Shown: positions 6,735 to 24,003 of the stretch, piece after piece | How positions within the stretch are numbered: the first letter of the stretch is position 1 | Layout of the letters: each line of letters opens with the position of its first letter | Assembly (NCBI RefSeq): GCF_008727735.1 | Contig: NZ_CP044227.1 | Coordinates: forward strand, 1,995,001 to 2,059,000 | DNA length: 64,000 nt | From: Flintibacter sp. KGMB00164 | GTDB taxonomy: Bacteria > Bacillota > Clostridia > Oscillospirales > Oscillospiraceae | Reading direction: 5' to 3' | Notes under the pieces: model-generated | Seen by the model: the letters and a program-made list of their open reading frames with translations, nothing else | Told to the model about the DNA's origin: nothing | The model's database searches: none | Made by a program: the position numbers and the translations under genes

Positions 6735-8179
6735 GCTGTTTTTCCTCCTTCCGGCAGGGACATGCGCCGGGAAATCAGCGCTCCCACCCCAAGATAGGCC
6801 CAGAACAGGAACATGACCCGGTAATTATAGAAGGAGTAATCGGTCATGGCCTGGACCAGGAAGCCGGCGATGCCGGCCCCCACCGCTACGATGTGCAGAC
6901 GGGTAAACCAGTCTTTCTCCCGGCAGAACGAGGCACACATATCCCGGAAGAAGCGGTAGAGCAGCAGCACAAAAATCACCAGTGCAACAATACCCGCGTC
7001 ACACACGATCTGCAGATACAGGTTGTGGGCGTGGGGAGCCACAATCCCGCTGTAACTGTATTTCGGATAGACCAGATTGAAGGCCGCATCCCCTGGGCCG
7101 ATGCCGCACAGCCAGTAGTCCTTCAGCATGGCCAGGGTGCCGATCCAAATGTACACGCGGTACGAGGTGGAGCTGTCTCCCAAATCACCGATGCTGGAGA
7201 AGCGGTTGATAATGGTATCCGGCAGTACAAAATACAGGGCCACCAGGGCAATGGGGGCCAGCAGCAGCAGCCGGGGCTGCAAAAACAGGACAAAGAGGAA
7301 GCCGGCAAACAGCAGGCCCAGCCAGGCGCCCCGGGACAGGGTAAGCAGCATACATACGCACATGATGCCGCAGCAGATGAAGTACCACACCCGCTGCGCC
7401 CAGTCCTTGGCAGACAACAGGCCCGCACCGCCCAGAGGGATGGCCAGAATCAGGTACTGGCCCAGCATGTTGGGGTTCTCCAGGGTGGAGGGTACCCGGA
7501 AGCTGTCGCCAAACATGTCGGTGTCCACCCAAGCCGTGGACTGATAGCCCCAGCCGAACAGATATTGGAGGATACCGTACAGGGCTACCGCCGTTCCGGC
7601 CAGCACCATCATGGCGATGAGCACATCCAGCTGCCGCCGGGTGGTGACAGCGTTTTCCAGCATAATGGTAAACAGCACAAAGGCCACGGTGAGCATGCCG
7701 CCCAGCAGGCTTCCTTTCAGGTTCACCGAGAAGAAGGTCCCTACCAGATAGATACCGGCATACAGCCAGATATAGCGGTTCATGGGGACATAGAACAGGT
7801 CCCGCTGCCGGTCCCGCATCAGGTTGAGCAGCACGGAGAAGCTGCCCACCATCGCCAGCCCCAACACCGCCATGGTAGGCAAAATGGGGGCCAAAACCAC
7901 TGCCGCGCCGCACCACAGCCAGCTTTTCAGAAAAATACTTCCTGCAAACAGCTTCTCCAGGCACAGCATCCGCCAAAGCCAGTTCAAAAACTGGTGGATC
8001 TTATCCCACAGACGGTAAAAGACACTGCTTTTTGACTCCGCCTGTTCCAGGGCCAGGGGCGGGTGGATGAACCACTGGATCACGCCGCTTCGCTGCCACT
8101 GACCGCTGAACCACAGGCAAATCGCCGCCAGCACACGATAAAGCACGCTGGCTTGTATTATGGTTCGCATTTGTTCCAT
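6731..8179 (-). CDS. O-antigen ligase / Wzy family membrane protein
   Basis: 482 residues with ten or more hydrophobic segments and a large extracytoplasmic loop. The C-terminal half has the Wzy_C/WaaL hallmark pattern: LTLSRGAWLGLL, then GIGPGDAAFNLVYPKYSYSG and the conserved PHAHNLYLQIVCDAGI with its catalytic-type histidines. In Gram-positives these proteins polymerise lipid-linked repeat units or ligate glycans outside the membrane. It sits between the MurJ-family flippase and a glycosyltransferase, as expected for a wall-polymer assembly operon. The start ATG is preceded by a weak, rather distant CGAGG, so translation may be coupled to the upstream gene 7 bp away. Confidence 0.85.
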   Translation of the reverse strand: MEQMRTIIQASVLYRVLAAICLWFSGQWQRSGVIQWFIHPPLALEQAESKSSVFYRLWDKIHQFLNWLWRMLCLEKLFAGSIFLKSWLWCGAAVVLAPILPTMAVLGLAMVGSFSVLLNLMRDRQRDLFYVPMNRYIWLYAGIYLVGTFFSVNLKGSLLGGMLTVAFVLFTIMLENAVTTRRQLDVLIAMMVLAGTAVALYGILQYLFGWGYQSTAWVDTDMFGDSFRVPSTLENPNMLGQYLILAIPLGGAGLLSAKDWAQRVWYFICCGIMCVCMLLTLSRGAWLGLLFAGFLFVLFLQPRLLLLAPIALVALYFVLPDTIINRFSSIGDLGDSSTSYRVYIWIGTLAMLKDYWLCGIGPGDAAFNLVYPKYSYSGIVAPHAHNLYLQIVCDAGIVALVIFVLLLYRFFRDMCASFCREKDWFTRLHIVAVGAGIAGFLVQAMTDYSFYNYRVMFLFWAYLGVGALISRRMSLPEGGKTA

Positions 8180-14774: not shown

Positions 14775-14803
14775 TTGCAAATTCTCCAAGGATTCGATAA
14801 AAT
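14775..14803 (+). promoter_or_regulatory. Sigma-A promoter of the purine operon leader
   Basis: TTGCAA, 17-bp spacer, TAAAAT. Transcription would start near 14811 and give a leader of about 218 nt before purE, holding the small reading frame and terminator listed next. No purine G-box, PRPP or T-box aptamer signature is recognisable in this leader. Confidence 0.75.
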
Positions 14804-14837
14804 GGAACTCTGATTGATGGGACAAGGAGGTTCTTCC

Positions 14838-14921
14838 ATGGTTTGCGGATTTTTCCATTCCGTTTTTCACCTGGATTGTATTTTCCACGGTCCCAATCTG
14901 TCCAAATATCCAAAAGCATAA
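14838..14921 (+). CDS. 27-residue leader peptide in the purE leader (candidate attenuation uORF)
   Basis: Short frame starting with ATG 14838 behind ACAAGGAGG with 7-nt spacing, which is as strong as any ribosome-binding site in the window. The peptide begins MVCGFFHSVFHLDC and ends NLSKYPKA; four Phe and three His fall in the first 17 residues. Its TAA stop is 7 nt before the first base of an intrinsic terminator stem, so a ribosome paused on the last codons or the stop would cover the 5' arm and block termination. That geometry is seen directly; the regulatory role is inferred. I do not recognise the peptide. It could also be an accidental frame, but the combination of promoter, ribosome-binding site, stop and terminator argues against that. 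Confidence 0.6.
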   Translation: MVCGFFHSVFHLDCIFHGPNLSKYPKA

Positions 14922-14928
14922 GAGATGA

Positions 14929-14970
14929 TCAGGCTGTCTGTGCGCGCAGATGGCCTGACTTTTTTCTTTT
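14929..14970 (+). terminator. Leader terminator (attenuator) upstream of purE
   Basis: Stem of TCAGGC (14929-14934) with GCCTGA (14953-14958), extended inward by TCTG/CAGA and G-U pairs to a four-base loop, followed by CTTTTTTCTTTT. It lies between the purine promoter and purE, so it must be read through for the operon to be expressed. Confidence 0.8.
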
Positions 14971-15028
14971 CCAAAAACAAGAAACCTTATGGCGTTTGGA
15001 TCGGACCATCTGAAAGGAGAGAGCATCT

Positions 15029-15523
15029 ATGAGCAAAAAAGTGGCTGTGATCATGGGCTCGGATAGCGACTGGCCGGTAGTAAAGGGTGCCTGTACCCAG
15101 TTGGAGGAGTTCGGCATTCCCTTTGAGGCCCACATTCTCAGCGCCCACCGCACCCCTGCCGCCGCCGCGGAATTTGCCCGGTCCGCCCGGGCCAATGGCT
15201 TTGGCGTGCTGATCTGTGCCGCGGGCATGGCCGCCCACCTGGCCGGCGCCTTCGCGGGCAACTCCACCCTCCCCGTCATCGGCATCCCCATGAAGGGCGG
15301 CGCCATGGACGGACTGGACGCCCTGCTGGCTACCGTCCAGATGCCCAGCGGTATCCCTGTAGCCACCGTGGCTATCAACGGCGCAAAAAATGCTGCCGTG
15401 CTGGCCGCCCAGATTCTGGCTGTCTCGGATGACGAGCTGGCCGCCAAGCTGGACGCCGCCCGGGAGAAGATGGCCGATCAGATCGCTCAGAAGGAGCAGA
15501 AGCTTCAGGCCGAGCTGGCCTGA
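15029..15523 (+). CDS. purE: N5-carboxyaminoimidazole ribonucleotide mutase PurE
   Basis: 164-residue cytoplasmic enzyme interconverting carboxyaminoimidazole ribonucleotides to give CAIR. Signature segments are GSDSDW at about 10-15, SAHRTP at 38-43 and the glycine-rich [11 protein letters not shown] near 73-83, all as in PurE. No purK lies beside it, so it may depend on a distant PurK or act as the class II carboxylase; the sequence seen here does not settle this. First structural gene after the attenuated leader, with ribosome-binding site AAAGGAGAG. Confidence 0.95.
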
Positions 15524-19472: not shown

Positions 19473-19510
19473 TCCCCCTTTTCGGTGCGCCCGCCCCTTT
19501 ACAATGTAAT

Positions 19511-19580
19511 CAAGCGGCATGACTGACGGAAGTGGAGTGACCACGGGGAGTGCCGCCTCTGAGAGCCGACCGTCTGGGCG
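19511..19580 (+). promoter_or_regulatory. ZTP/ZMP riboswitch (pfl motif)
   Basis: Aptamer read directly: P1 GCGGCA (19514-19519) with TGCCGC (19551-19556); conserved GACTGACGG; P2 GTGG (19532-19535) with CCAC (19541-19544); CGGGGAG; and the 3' part CCGTCTGGGC. The pseudoknot GACGG (19525-19529) pairs with CCGTC (19570-19574). This matches the pfl consensus. It senses AICAR mono/triphosphate, the substrate pool of the genes downstream. Ligand binding would hold the 3' GGGC and prevent the overlapping terminator, so this should be an ON switch. Confidence 0.92.
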
Positions 19581-19618
19581 CACCCGTTTGCACAAACGTG
19601 GTGCGCCCATTTGCTTAT
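19576..19618 (+). terminator. Terminator forming the expression platform of the ZTP riboswitch
   Basis: GGGCGCACC (19576-19584) pairs with GGTGCGCCC (19600-19608), with an inner CGTTTG/CAAACG stem and a U-rich tail. The 5' arm shares GGGC with the aptamer. An identical copy of the 3' arm, GGTGCGCCC at 19484-19492, lies before the aptamer and could compete for the 5' arm. Confidence 0.85.
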
Positions 19619-20361: not shown

Positions 20362-21459
20362 ATGCCCTTGACCGACCCCATTTTGGAATTTCAGCGTGCC
20401 CGAGCCGCCGCTGCCTTCCAGCCCCCGGTGCTCTGCTCCTCCAAGGCCTTTCCCCTGCTGCTGGCCGGGGTACCCGCCCTGCGGAAAACGCCGGGCCTGG
20501 CCACCATGGAGGACGCCGGAGAGGAGTACTTCACCTCCATCCCCTTCTGCCTGAGCAAGGAAGATCAGCAGGCCGCCCGCACTCATCTGTCTGAGGTGTT
20601 CGGCATCACCGATAAGAACAGCCTGATCGCTTTCTGCCAGAACACGGTGCACATCCACCAGGAATATCTGGATTTTGAGTCCTTCTGGGAGGACCGCCCC
20701 AATTTCTCTCTGGATGAGCTGACCCCTCAGGCCCTGTCCGGCTTCCAGCGCCTGTCCGACTTTGCCCGGCAGTTCCAGCCCATTGTGGGCCGCCGAGGCT
20801 TCCTGGCCTGGGACATCAGCGAGACCCTGGGCTATCTCCGCTCCGCCTGTGCCTGTGAGCTCATCACCATGGAGGAGTACCAGGAGCTGTCCCAGTACTG
20901 GGTAGACCAGGCCGCCGCTTTCCACAGCTGGGATGAGTACGCTGTGGACCTGGTATGCGGCGCCGCCTACTGGGCCTTCCGCATCGGCGGCGAGCAGGAC
21001 GCCATCTCCTACCGGGATCTGAACCTGCGCCTGGTGCGTGACCTGCTGGGCAGCAAGCAGGCCTGGTGCGGCCGTATGTGGCCCCGTCCTACGGGAAAGA
21101 GCTATAAACTTTCCGAGCCGGAAATGCGGCCTCTCCTGAAGAATTGGGACGGCCCTGCCGCCTGCCTGGCTACCGACGAGATCACTGTCTCCGGCAAACC
21201 GGTAGGCTACTGCTACCGGGAAAAGCCGGAACGGGAGGGTCAGGACAGCGGCTGGCGCTTCTTTGCCGCTGTGGAGAGCGAAGAGTACCTCAGCGACCCC
21301 TCCCACATCGGAGTCTACTCCCTCAATACCCTCTGCAATTACGACTCCGACCTGATCCCCCTGCTCAGCGCTCCCTACGGCAGTGCTTTTGCCCGGGGTG
21401 AGGACGGAGCCTTCCACTATGAACCCCTCAATCCCCAAGATTCCGATCAGAAAGGATGA
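20362..21459 (+). CDS. DUF1266 plus DUF2185 domain protein inside the purine operon
   Basis: 365 residues, no signal peptide or membrane segment. The middle (about 85-215) matches DUF1266, with WDISETLGYLRSACACELI followed by a Trp-rich helical region ending DLVCGAAYWAFR. The C-terminal part (about 265-350) matches DUF2185 (Imm33-like), with CLATDEITVSGKPVGYCYRE, SGWRFFA and the end DSDLIPLLSAPYGSAF. Neither domain has an assigned biochemical role; both are known from hypothetical and polymorphic-toxin immunity-type proteins. It sits 13 bp after the purO-like gene and 6 bp before the transformylase, so it is surely co-transcribed. A role in purine synthesis or regulation is possible but unproven. 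Confidence 0.75.
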   Translation: MPLTDPILEFQRARAAAAFQPPVLCSSKAFPLLLAGVPALRKTPGLATMEDAGEEYFTSIPFCLSKEDQQAARTHLSEVFGITDKNSLIAFCQNTVHIHQEYLDFESFWEDRPNFSLDELTPQALSGFQRLSDFARQFQPIVGRRGFLAWDISETLGYLRSACACELITMEEYQELSQYWVDQAAAFHSWDEYAVDLVCGAAYWAFRIGGEQDAISYRDLNLRLVRDLLGSKQAWCGRMWPRPTGKSYKLSEPEMRPLLKNWDGPAACLATDEITVSGKPVGYCYREKPEREGQDSGWRFFAAVESEEYLSDPSHIGVYSLNTLCNYDSDLIPLLSAPYGSAFARGEDGAFHYEPLNPQDSDQKG

Positions 21460-22746: not shown

Positions 22747-24003
22747 ATGAAAGTATTAGTTGTTGGCGGCGGCGGCCGTGAGCATGCCATCTGCTGGAAG
22801 CTGGCTCAAAGCCCCAAGGTAACCGAGCTCTACTGCGCCCCCGGAAACGGCGGCATCGCCCAGGTAGCCACCTGTGTTCCCATCAAAGCCACCGATGTAG
22901 ACGCCATGGTATCCTGGGCCAAGGAAAATGCCATGGACTTTGTCATGGTGGCTCCCGACGATCCTCTGGCTCTTGGTATGGTGGACGCCCTGGAGGCCGC
23001 CGGCATTCCCGCCTTCGGCCCTCGTGCCAACGCTGCCATCATTGAGGCCAGCAAGGCGTTCTCCAAAGAGCTGATGAAGAAGTACCACATCCCCACCGCC
23101 AAGTATGAGACCTTCACTGAGATGGACAAGGCTCTGGCCTACATCGACGAGCAGGGCGCCCCCATTGTAGTCAAGGCCGACGGCCTGGCTCTGGGCAAGG
23201 GTGTGGTGGTGGCCTCCACTGTGGACGAGGCCAAGACCGCCGTCCGTGAGATGATGGAGGACCATAAGTTTGGCCAGAGCGGCTCCACCGTGGTCATTGA
23301 GGAATGCATGGTTGGCCCCGAGGTCACCGTGCTGGCCTTCTGCGACGGCGAGCACCTGGTCCCCATGCTGTCCTCTCAGGACCACAAGCGCGCCTATGAC
23401 GGCAACCTTGGCCCCAACACCGGCGGCATGGGCGCCTTCTGCCCCTCCCCCAAATACACCCCCGAAATTGCCAAGGAGTGCATGGAGAAGATCTTCCTAC
23501 CCACCGTGGCCGCTCTGAAGGCGGAAGGCCGTCCCTTCAAGGGTGTCATCTACTTCGGCCTGATGCTCACCAAGGACGGTCCCAAGGTGGTAGAGTACAA
23601 CGCCCGCTTCGGCGACCCTGAGACCCAGCCCCTGCTGTCCATGCTGGACAGCGACCTCATGGACATCTTTGAGGCCTGCGTGAACGGCACCCTGGACCAG
23701 GTGGAGGTCAAGTGGAAGGACGGCGCTGCCTGCTGCATCGTGCTGGCTTCCGGCGGCTATCCGGTGAAGTACCAGAGCGGCTATCCCATCTCCGGTCTGG
23801 AGGAGGCGGGTAAGTCCGCCACCGTGTTCCACGCCGGTACCAAGCGCCAGGAGGACGGCACCATCGTCACCGCTGGCGGCCGTGTGCTGGGTGTGACTGC
23901 CCTGGGCGCTGACCTGGACGAGGCCATCTCCAACGCCTATGCCGCCTGTGCCCCCATCTCCTTCCAGGATATGCACATGCGCAAGGACATCGGTAAGGTA
24001 TGA
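22747..24003 (+). CDS. purD: Phosphoribosylamine-glycine ligase PurD
   Basis: 418 residues, ATP-grasp enzyme joining glycine to phosphoribosylamine. It shows VLVVGGGGREHAICWKL at the N-terminus, the ATP-binding stretch PIVVKADGLALGKGV near 140-155, PNTGGMGAF, and GVIYFGLMLTKDGPKVVEYNARFGDPE with metal ligands. The stop overlaps the ATG of the HAD gene by four bases. PurD consumes the unstable product of PurF, so both belong to the same pathway segment despite their distance in the operon. Confidence 0.96.
   Translation: MKVLVVGGGGREHAICWKLAQSPKVTELYCAPGNGGIAQVATCVPIKATDVDAMVSWAKENAMDFVMVAPDDPLALGMVDALEAAGIPAFGPRANAAIIEASKAFSKELMKKYHIPTAKYETFTEMDKALAYIDEQGAPIVVKADGLALGKGVVVASTVDEAKTAVREMMEDHKFGQSGSTVVIEECMVGPEVTVLAFCDGEHLVPMLSSQDHKRAYDGNLGPNTGGMGAFCPSPKYTPEIAKECMEKIFLPTVAALKAEGRPFKGVIYFGLMLTKDGPKVVEYNARFGDPETQPLLSMLDSDLMDIFEACVNGTLDQVEVKWKDGAACCIVLASGGYPVKYQSGYPISGLEEAGKSATVFHAGTKRQEDGTIVTAGGRVLGVTALGADLDEAISNAYAACAPISFQDMHMRKDIGKV

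Follow-up and report, generated by a model that had tools for sequence, protein, structure and literature searches.

Attenuators of the trp and his type combine a leader open reading frame (ORF), a pause of RNA polymerase (RNAP) and a terminator, a layout that the purE leader described here appears to share. Sensing of a nucleotide through the progress of RNAP with a coupled ribosome is textbook knowledge for the pyrimidines, where pyrBI of E. coli shows UTP-dependent pausing in a U-rich tract and its leader ORF, pyrL, ends inside the attenuator; we know of no purine system that works in this way. The tlrB and vmlR leaders of B. subtilis also combine a NusG-dependent pause with a leader peptide but, unlike the leader considered here, they answer antibiotic-stalled ribosomes, vmlR uses an antiterminator, and their pause motif is TTNTTT. 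For pyrBI, PMC5021804 describes translation of the leader ORF as far as the attenuator, with the coupled ribosome preventing formation of the hairpin, and in the account of PMC13328217 control of de novo purine synthesis is attributed to PurR repressors, (p)ppGpp and riboswitches. A search of the open-licence PMC literature on purine and purE leaders, covering titles and the starts of abstracts, in which 'purE' is indistinguishable from 'pure', showed no translated or pausing purE leader among the papers listed. The main text of PMC11109978 presents eight upstream ORF (uORF) candidates and does not mention purE; its weak riboswitch candidate with an anti-Shine-Dalgarno loop precedes an FGAM synthase (purL-type) operon, which is a different gene.

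The locus lies in a 64,000-nucleotide stretch of Flintibacter sp. KGMB00164 (NZ_CP044227.1, positions 1,995,001 to 2,059,000; hereafter the window), and the features of the leader are all on its forward strand. A sigma-70-type promoter (TTGCAA-17-TAAAAT, 14775-14803), with counterparts before many of the relatives inspected, places the probable transcription start near 14810. It is followed by the 5' strand of a predicted helix, P1 (14812-14823, comprising GAU at 14812-14814 and GAUGGGAC at 14816-14823), which adjoins the Shine-Dalgarno (SD) sequence AAGGAGG (14824-14830) of a leader ORF of 27 codons plus TAA (14838-14921; ATG 14838-14840, MVCGFFHSVFHLDCIFHGPNLSKYPKA, TAA 14919-14921). Towards its 3' end the ORF contains an elemental-pause-like site (14889-14900, reading G-11 G-10 N6 T-3 C-2 T-1 G+1), at which the predicted RNA 3' end is 14899 and the next nucleotide G14900; it is overlapped by the P1 3' strand (14890-14902) and is directly followed by a conserved UCCAAA (14901-14906). 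An intrinsic terminator recovered by a terminator scan (14929-14965) begins 7 nt after the stop codon with a stem of 13 pairs (14929-14958), then CTTTTTTCTT as its U-run, and purE (AIR carboxylase, 15029-15523, ATG at 15029, assigned by Pfam) is the first gene of the pur run behind it. Every element that the earlier note on this DNA had listed, from the promoter and SD sequence to the 27-codon frame, the 7-nt gap and purE, is thus present in the sequence. A single promoter or terminator match is poor evidence by itself (the scan gave three promoter-like sites against 0.7 expected and one terminator-like site against 1.9), and it is comparison across relatives that settles the reality of the layout.

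Upstream regions of purE were collected from 99 genomes (95 with a match), from 200 genomes belonging to the family (161 of them with a match, from which 60 further loci were taken in E-value order among the matches listed), and from named genomes, of whose 580 loci the best 80 were retained. Removal of exact duplicates left 225 regions; among those dropped were L036 and L043, labelled Lawsonibacter, as duplicates of the same-genus L020 and L028. Setting aside 35 regions with a ZTP-like 3' motif and 65 without a qualifying terminator gave 125 (106 cluster representatives), and one further locus lacked enough room, so that ORF and frame counts refer to 124 loci and 105 representatives. The ZTP-like filter was a pattern rather than an Rfam model, and missed at least one leader, L184. 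Pseudoflavonifractor, Gemmiger and Ruminococcus records are among the named loci that carry the leader described here. An RNA model of the leader, R1, run over 60 genomes found it before purE in 35 of 37 genomes of the window's genus (the exceptions being G017 and G025), many of these being the model's own members, and gave no strong match at a purE leader in 23 genomes of the same order. Eighteen weaker R1 matches were inspected by eye: 14 follow an ORF end, one follows a tRNA-like stretch and three (L240, L244 and L255) are ambiguous, L240 standing 14 nt before a 71-codon ORF; behind these 18, by eye only, no pur gene was recognised. In the organism's own genome the pattern GGN6TNYGYYCAAA matched 15 times against five for the reversed control, and the one match that was placed is the purE leader.

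The position of the stop codon relative to the terminator is conserved in these leaders. Of the 105 cluster representatives that have a terminator and lack a ZTP-like motif, 89 possess an SD-started ORF with its stop between -16 and +14 nt of the stem, against 11.2 +/- 3.0 (maximum 22) in 60 dinucleotide shuffles, although with this as with all the shuffle counts given here the shared ancestry of the leaders makes them seem more independent than they are. Restricting the count to a strong SD with ATG left 54 representatives against 0.7; when the interior was shuffled with SD and start retained, 15.6 of the 89 still qualified, and identical starts read in frames +1 and +2 qualified in 14 and 11 of the 89. 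Stops fall at -8 to -3 in 51 of the 89. Because the ORF counts far exceed those of shuffles, interior shuffles and other frames, we conclude that the open frame reaching the terminator is under selection, and translation as far as the terminator is well supported in these leaders. The leader frame and the stop-to-stem spacing, which the earlier note had proposed to check in relatives, are accordingly both kept far above chance.

Departures from this layout also occur. Sixteen of the 105 representatives have no qualifying ORF, including the same-genus L022 and L039; L022 (duplicate L109) keeps a P1-like pairing, the motif and the terminator without a qualifying SD-started ORF. In L039 and L045 the leader ORF runs into the terminator, with its stop inside the 3' arm rather than before the stem. 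The leader of L006 (G023:C49 6727-6808) stands some 300 nt ahead of purE (at 7109), with extra sequence between, and in L020 (duplicate L036), of the same genus, purE stands directly behind an upstream gene across a short gap without a leader.

The substitution pattern of the ORF, examined in 15 sister pairs of equal length, suggests that the encoded peptide matters little. Outside the pause-like motif pS was 0.20 and pN 0.13, with 30, 38 and 39 changes at codon positions 1, 2 and 3, whereas inside the motif pS was 0.05 (4.5 of 84 sites) and pN 0.08, so that synonymous sites are better conserved inside than outside (Fisher p 0.003, on rounded counts). The leader peptide would thus be under at most weak constraint, and, since pS is lower inside the motif and the motif stands in other frames in some leaders, we take the conserved codons to behave as conserved nucleotides and not as residues. 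Of 52 motif-bearing representatives, 41 have the motif in frame 0, seven in frame 1 and four in frame 2. Across the leader peptides no amino acid is present markedly above the expectation from composition; the largest excess is that of Lys (0.82 against 0.72), followed here by Gly (present in 0.93 of peptides against 0.86 expected), and both stem partly from motif codons. These results bear on several proposals of the earlier note. The synonymous bias that it suggested looking for is seen inside the motif, whilst conserved codons in the sense of a conserved peptide were not found. The Phe and His richness of the window's peptide is real and accords with a pyrimidine-rich ORF (37% purine), but finds no support as a set of control codons. 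The placement of ORF and stop and the E. coli precedent for stop codons near terminators support attenuation by a ribosome at the stop codon. The trigger put forward in the note, slow decoding of the final codons or delayed release, finds no support: the peptides diverge widely, no amino acid is markedly enriched, and the motif codons are conserved as nucleotides.

The nucleotide motif itself was enriched without reference to the ORF. In 42 of 106 representatives GGN6TGYR is present in the 75 nt that precede the stem, where 100 shuffles gave 6.4 +/- 2.4, and TGYR alone is not enriched in the same set (85 against 77). Other spacings, each with about 6 in shuffles, gave 18 for N5 and 20 for N7 (about threefold) and 11 for N8 (about twofold), with N4 hardly enriched. 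With Y-1 at 12-36 nt before the stem the motif is present in 28 of 105 representatives against 2.4. Distant representatives, with purE less than 85% identical to that of the window, retain it in 24 of 55 against 3.7 (reached in 0 of 200 shuffles), and at 12-36 nt in 14 of 55 against 1.6; ten of these 24 bearers lie outside 12-36 nt, one of the ten, L184, has a ZTP-type leader, and many have A at +1. The site in the window has C instead of G at -2, and the broader GGN6NNYG, which covers this variant, is found in 46 of 50 near relatives against 15.9 but shows no clear excess among the distant representatives (27 against 22.4). Expectation-maximisation with no preset pattern recovered GG-N6-T[GC]YG-YCCAAAA, and in an alignment (A1) of 40 near relatives, selected from the 124 loci by motif match, G-11, G-10 and G+1 are invariant. 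A scored search looked only at 12-36 nt before the stem and rewarded G or A at +1, which partly predetermines its spacings and base counts. In it Y-1 lies 22-30 nt before the stem in 48 of 59 high-scoring representatives; at +1, 46 of 52 high-scoring leaders have G and six have A, the latter in AT-richer surroundings. The window has 27 further terminator-like hairpins, none of which carries GGN6TGYR, a small sample for which about 1.6 would be expected at the shuffle rate. The YCCAAA that follows is conserved as strongly as the motif, and pausing does not account for it.

This motif resembles the elemental pause of RNAP, whose consensus reportedly extends, following Larson's work of 2014, to G-11 and T-3 G-2. 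The core of that consensus is given as G-10, Y-1 and G+1 (PMC12288461, PMC7797061), and in the experiments reported in PMC6336406 RNAP needs GTP to leave the consensus pause, with bypass falling from 22% at 100 uM to 7% at 10 uM GTP. GG-N6-TGYR matches the consensus, and pausing of RNAP at this position is accordingly putative, resting on the letters of the motif.

A further signal connects the pause segment to the start of the ORF. Duplex and opening tests were made on 70 of the 89 ORF-bearing representatives (motif score of at least 7.5 and enough room), and the 28 nt preceding the start codon pair with the leader's own motif segment at -14.5 kcal/mol, against -12.0 kcal/mol with the segments of other leaders (0 of 3000 permutations, z -7.4), in agreement with the duplex and fold predictions for P1 in the window. 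Leaders without GPN-type peptides retain the signal (z -4.4, n 42), and among other segment pairs only the terminator arms, the positive control, exceed permutation (z -19.4). The predicted cost of opening the ribosome-binding site (RBS) is 8.6 kcal/mol in the paused transcript and 11.3 once the pause segment has emerged, as against 10.0 with a shuffled extension (p 2e-5), and lies above that of a leader's own shuffles in 50 of the 70. The window's own leader does not show this gating of the RBS by P1, its opening cost going from 10.7 to 9.0 kcal/mol after emergence of the segment.

Established purine regulators were also sought. No genome of 60 exceeded the cut-off of TIGR01743 for a Bacillus-type PurR, compared with two of 14 control genomes; weaker matches occur in 58 of the 60, and as all those listed begin at profile position 65 or later we have taken them as phosphoribosyltransferase homology. 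The window's leader has no Rfam match at gathering score to a purine, PRPP or ZTP riboswitch. At a relaxed threshold three sub-threshold matches appeared, for example an L20 leader at 16.2 bits against a cut-off of 58.7, and were discarded. The earlier note's view that a translated purine leader would be new is consistent with the literature listed in the searches, which showed no earlier description. Other genera of the family (L182, L184, L185, L200, L210 and others) carry a ZTP-riboswitch-like leader with a terminator before purE. The ZTP-like motif, recognised by pattern, thus fills the same place before purE, unlike the window's purE leader, which has no match to RF01750, and two apparently unrelated devices would occupy this position, a ZTP-type element in other genera and a translated leader in that of the window. 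The pur run of the window, from purE to purD at 24003, is confirmed by Pfam for purE, purC, IMP cyclohydrolase, an AICAR transformylase type protein and purD; purF has a weak match, which nevertheless fits the run, and purM and purN are presumably the ORFs to which we assign them. A ZTP riboswitch identified by Rfam (19509-19586) lies within the run before the IMP cyclohydrolase gene, with a hairpin-like stretch and a T-rich tail after it, and would give the operon a second control point. An Imm33/DUF1266 protein is encoded at 20362-21459, between the IMP cyclohydrolase and transformylase genes.

Several readings of the purE leader may be weighed against these data. Control-codon attenuation sensing an amino acid would suit a leader ORF followed by a terminator but, unlike the trp and his leaders, this one is without control codons and without an alternative antiterminator: four upstream segments tested against the terminator 5' arm gave z 0.0 (the pause segment), 0.1, 1.4 and -1.6 (the 5' segment, the strongest), none beyond permutation. 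Classical attenuation was rejected on these pairing permutations and the amino-acid presence test, and is very improbable. An arrest peptide, whose C-terminus (GPNxSK in the genus) would stall the ribosome on a purine-related ligand and block the terminator, could explain the in-frame C-terminal GPNxSK-type motif of many same-genus leaders and the single frame common to most motif bearers. We nonetheless think it improbable, for the motif is off-frame in 11 of 52 representatives (several with weakly assigned ORFs, and L016 with a second possible ORF, TTG-started, in the usual frame, but L011, L064 and L072 being clear), the same-genus L011 keeps the nucleotides and loses the peptide, the better conservation inside the motif extends to synonymous sites, and the residue of the nYG codon may be L, P, A, M, T or V. 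The conserved residues near the stall of TnaC- or SpeFL-type attenuators have no counterpart here beyond a partial conservation of frame, mainly within the genus.

It is likewise rather unlikely that P1 and the UGYRYCCAAA strand form an unrecognised aptamer or protein-binding RNA to which the ORF is secondary. Such an element would make sense of the P1 pairing, of the UCCAAA that pausing leaves unexplained and of L022, which retains P1 and motif; against this, the conserved letters of P1 are found on its 3' strand only, the enclosed ORF varies, Rfam matches were absent at gathering score and at chance level below it, and conservation of the ORF would have no explanation. A sensor of initiation capacity, in which the ORF would report formyl-Met-tRNA and 10-formyl-THF or IF2-GTP whilst the pause merely synchronises ribosome and RNAP, fits the same evidence on ORF, stop and P1, and 10-formyl-THF is a substrate of the purine pathway. 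A role for the rate of initiation, by way of methionine and initiator tRNA, was proposed for the streptococcal fthC uORF (PMC11109978). Low GTP or formyl-THF would, however, be expected to cut initiation and turn the operon off at purine shortage, the wrong direction, and this analysis found no tie between leader and folate, so that we consider this sensor unlikely too.

The reading we prefer, at about even chances, is a coupled transcription-translation attenuator of the pyrBI type adapted to purines. As in pyrBI, a nucleotide end product and not a peptide would be sensed through the progress of RNAP. A translated-ORF layout, judged by reading frame only, and the absence of a competing antiterminator in the pairing permutations are both as expected of that type, and the site, whose sequence matches G-10 Y-1 G+1, would be a pause limited by the end-product nucleotide. 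Unlike pyrBI, the operon is a purine operon of Clostridia, the U-rich tract is replaced by an elemental-pause-like site with G or A next, the stop precedes the stem, and a P1 helix with the SD segment is added. RNAP would pass the SD and the pyrimidine-rich ORF and then pause at the conserved site near the ORF 3' end, from which the escape nucleotide would be GTP (ATP in some AT-rich relatives); during the pause the RBS would be exposed and a ribosome able to load. With purine nucleotides plentiful, RNAP would escape quickly, the pause segment would pair with the SD segment to form P1, few ribosomes would load, the terminator would fold and the operon would be off. At low GTP or ATP the pause would be long, and a loaded ribosome would run to the stop 7 nt before the stem and cover the 5' arm, allowing RNAP to proceed into purE. 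That such a ribosome should cover the 5' arm, and that translated should mean on, follows from the effect in E. coli of stop codons near terminators, where moving the stop from 28 to 5 bp before the terminator reduced termination from about 90% to below 10%, an effect lost without translation (PMC4824070). The composition of 50 leaders accords with this scheme, as the ORF ahead of the pause has few purines (A 0.14, G 0.22) and G makes up only 0.11 of the stretch from pause to stem. The purine-NTP level may set the pause length. We propose tentatively, at slightly less than even chances, that RNAP itself is the purine sensor, its pause timing the open RBS and ribosome loading before P1 closure deciding the outcome.

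Coupling of transcription and translation in this clade is putative, the counterpoint being runaway transcription in B. subtilis, whose RNAP outruns ribosomes (PMC9226507) and whose sense-strand purine content of 54% is read in PMC13323073 as a signature of runaway transcription under Rho. The pur genes of the window have a sense-strand purine content of 48.6%, which is weak support for coupling, as loss of Rho would also lower purine and the value is that of a single operon. A sensor of the kind proposed would need no aptamer, repressor or conserved peptide, and would extend from the window's genus to Clostridia further away. If the proposal is correct, it would supply a regulator for gut bacteria in which the search gave no Bacillus-type PurR, it would be a case of a generic pause sequence conserved for metabolic sensing, and it would imply working transcription-translation coupling in these Clostridia, against the runaway transcription of B. 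subtilis.
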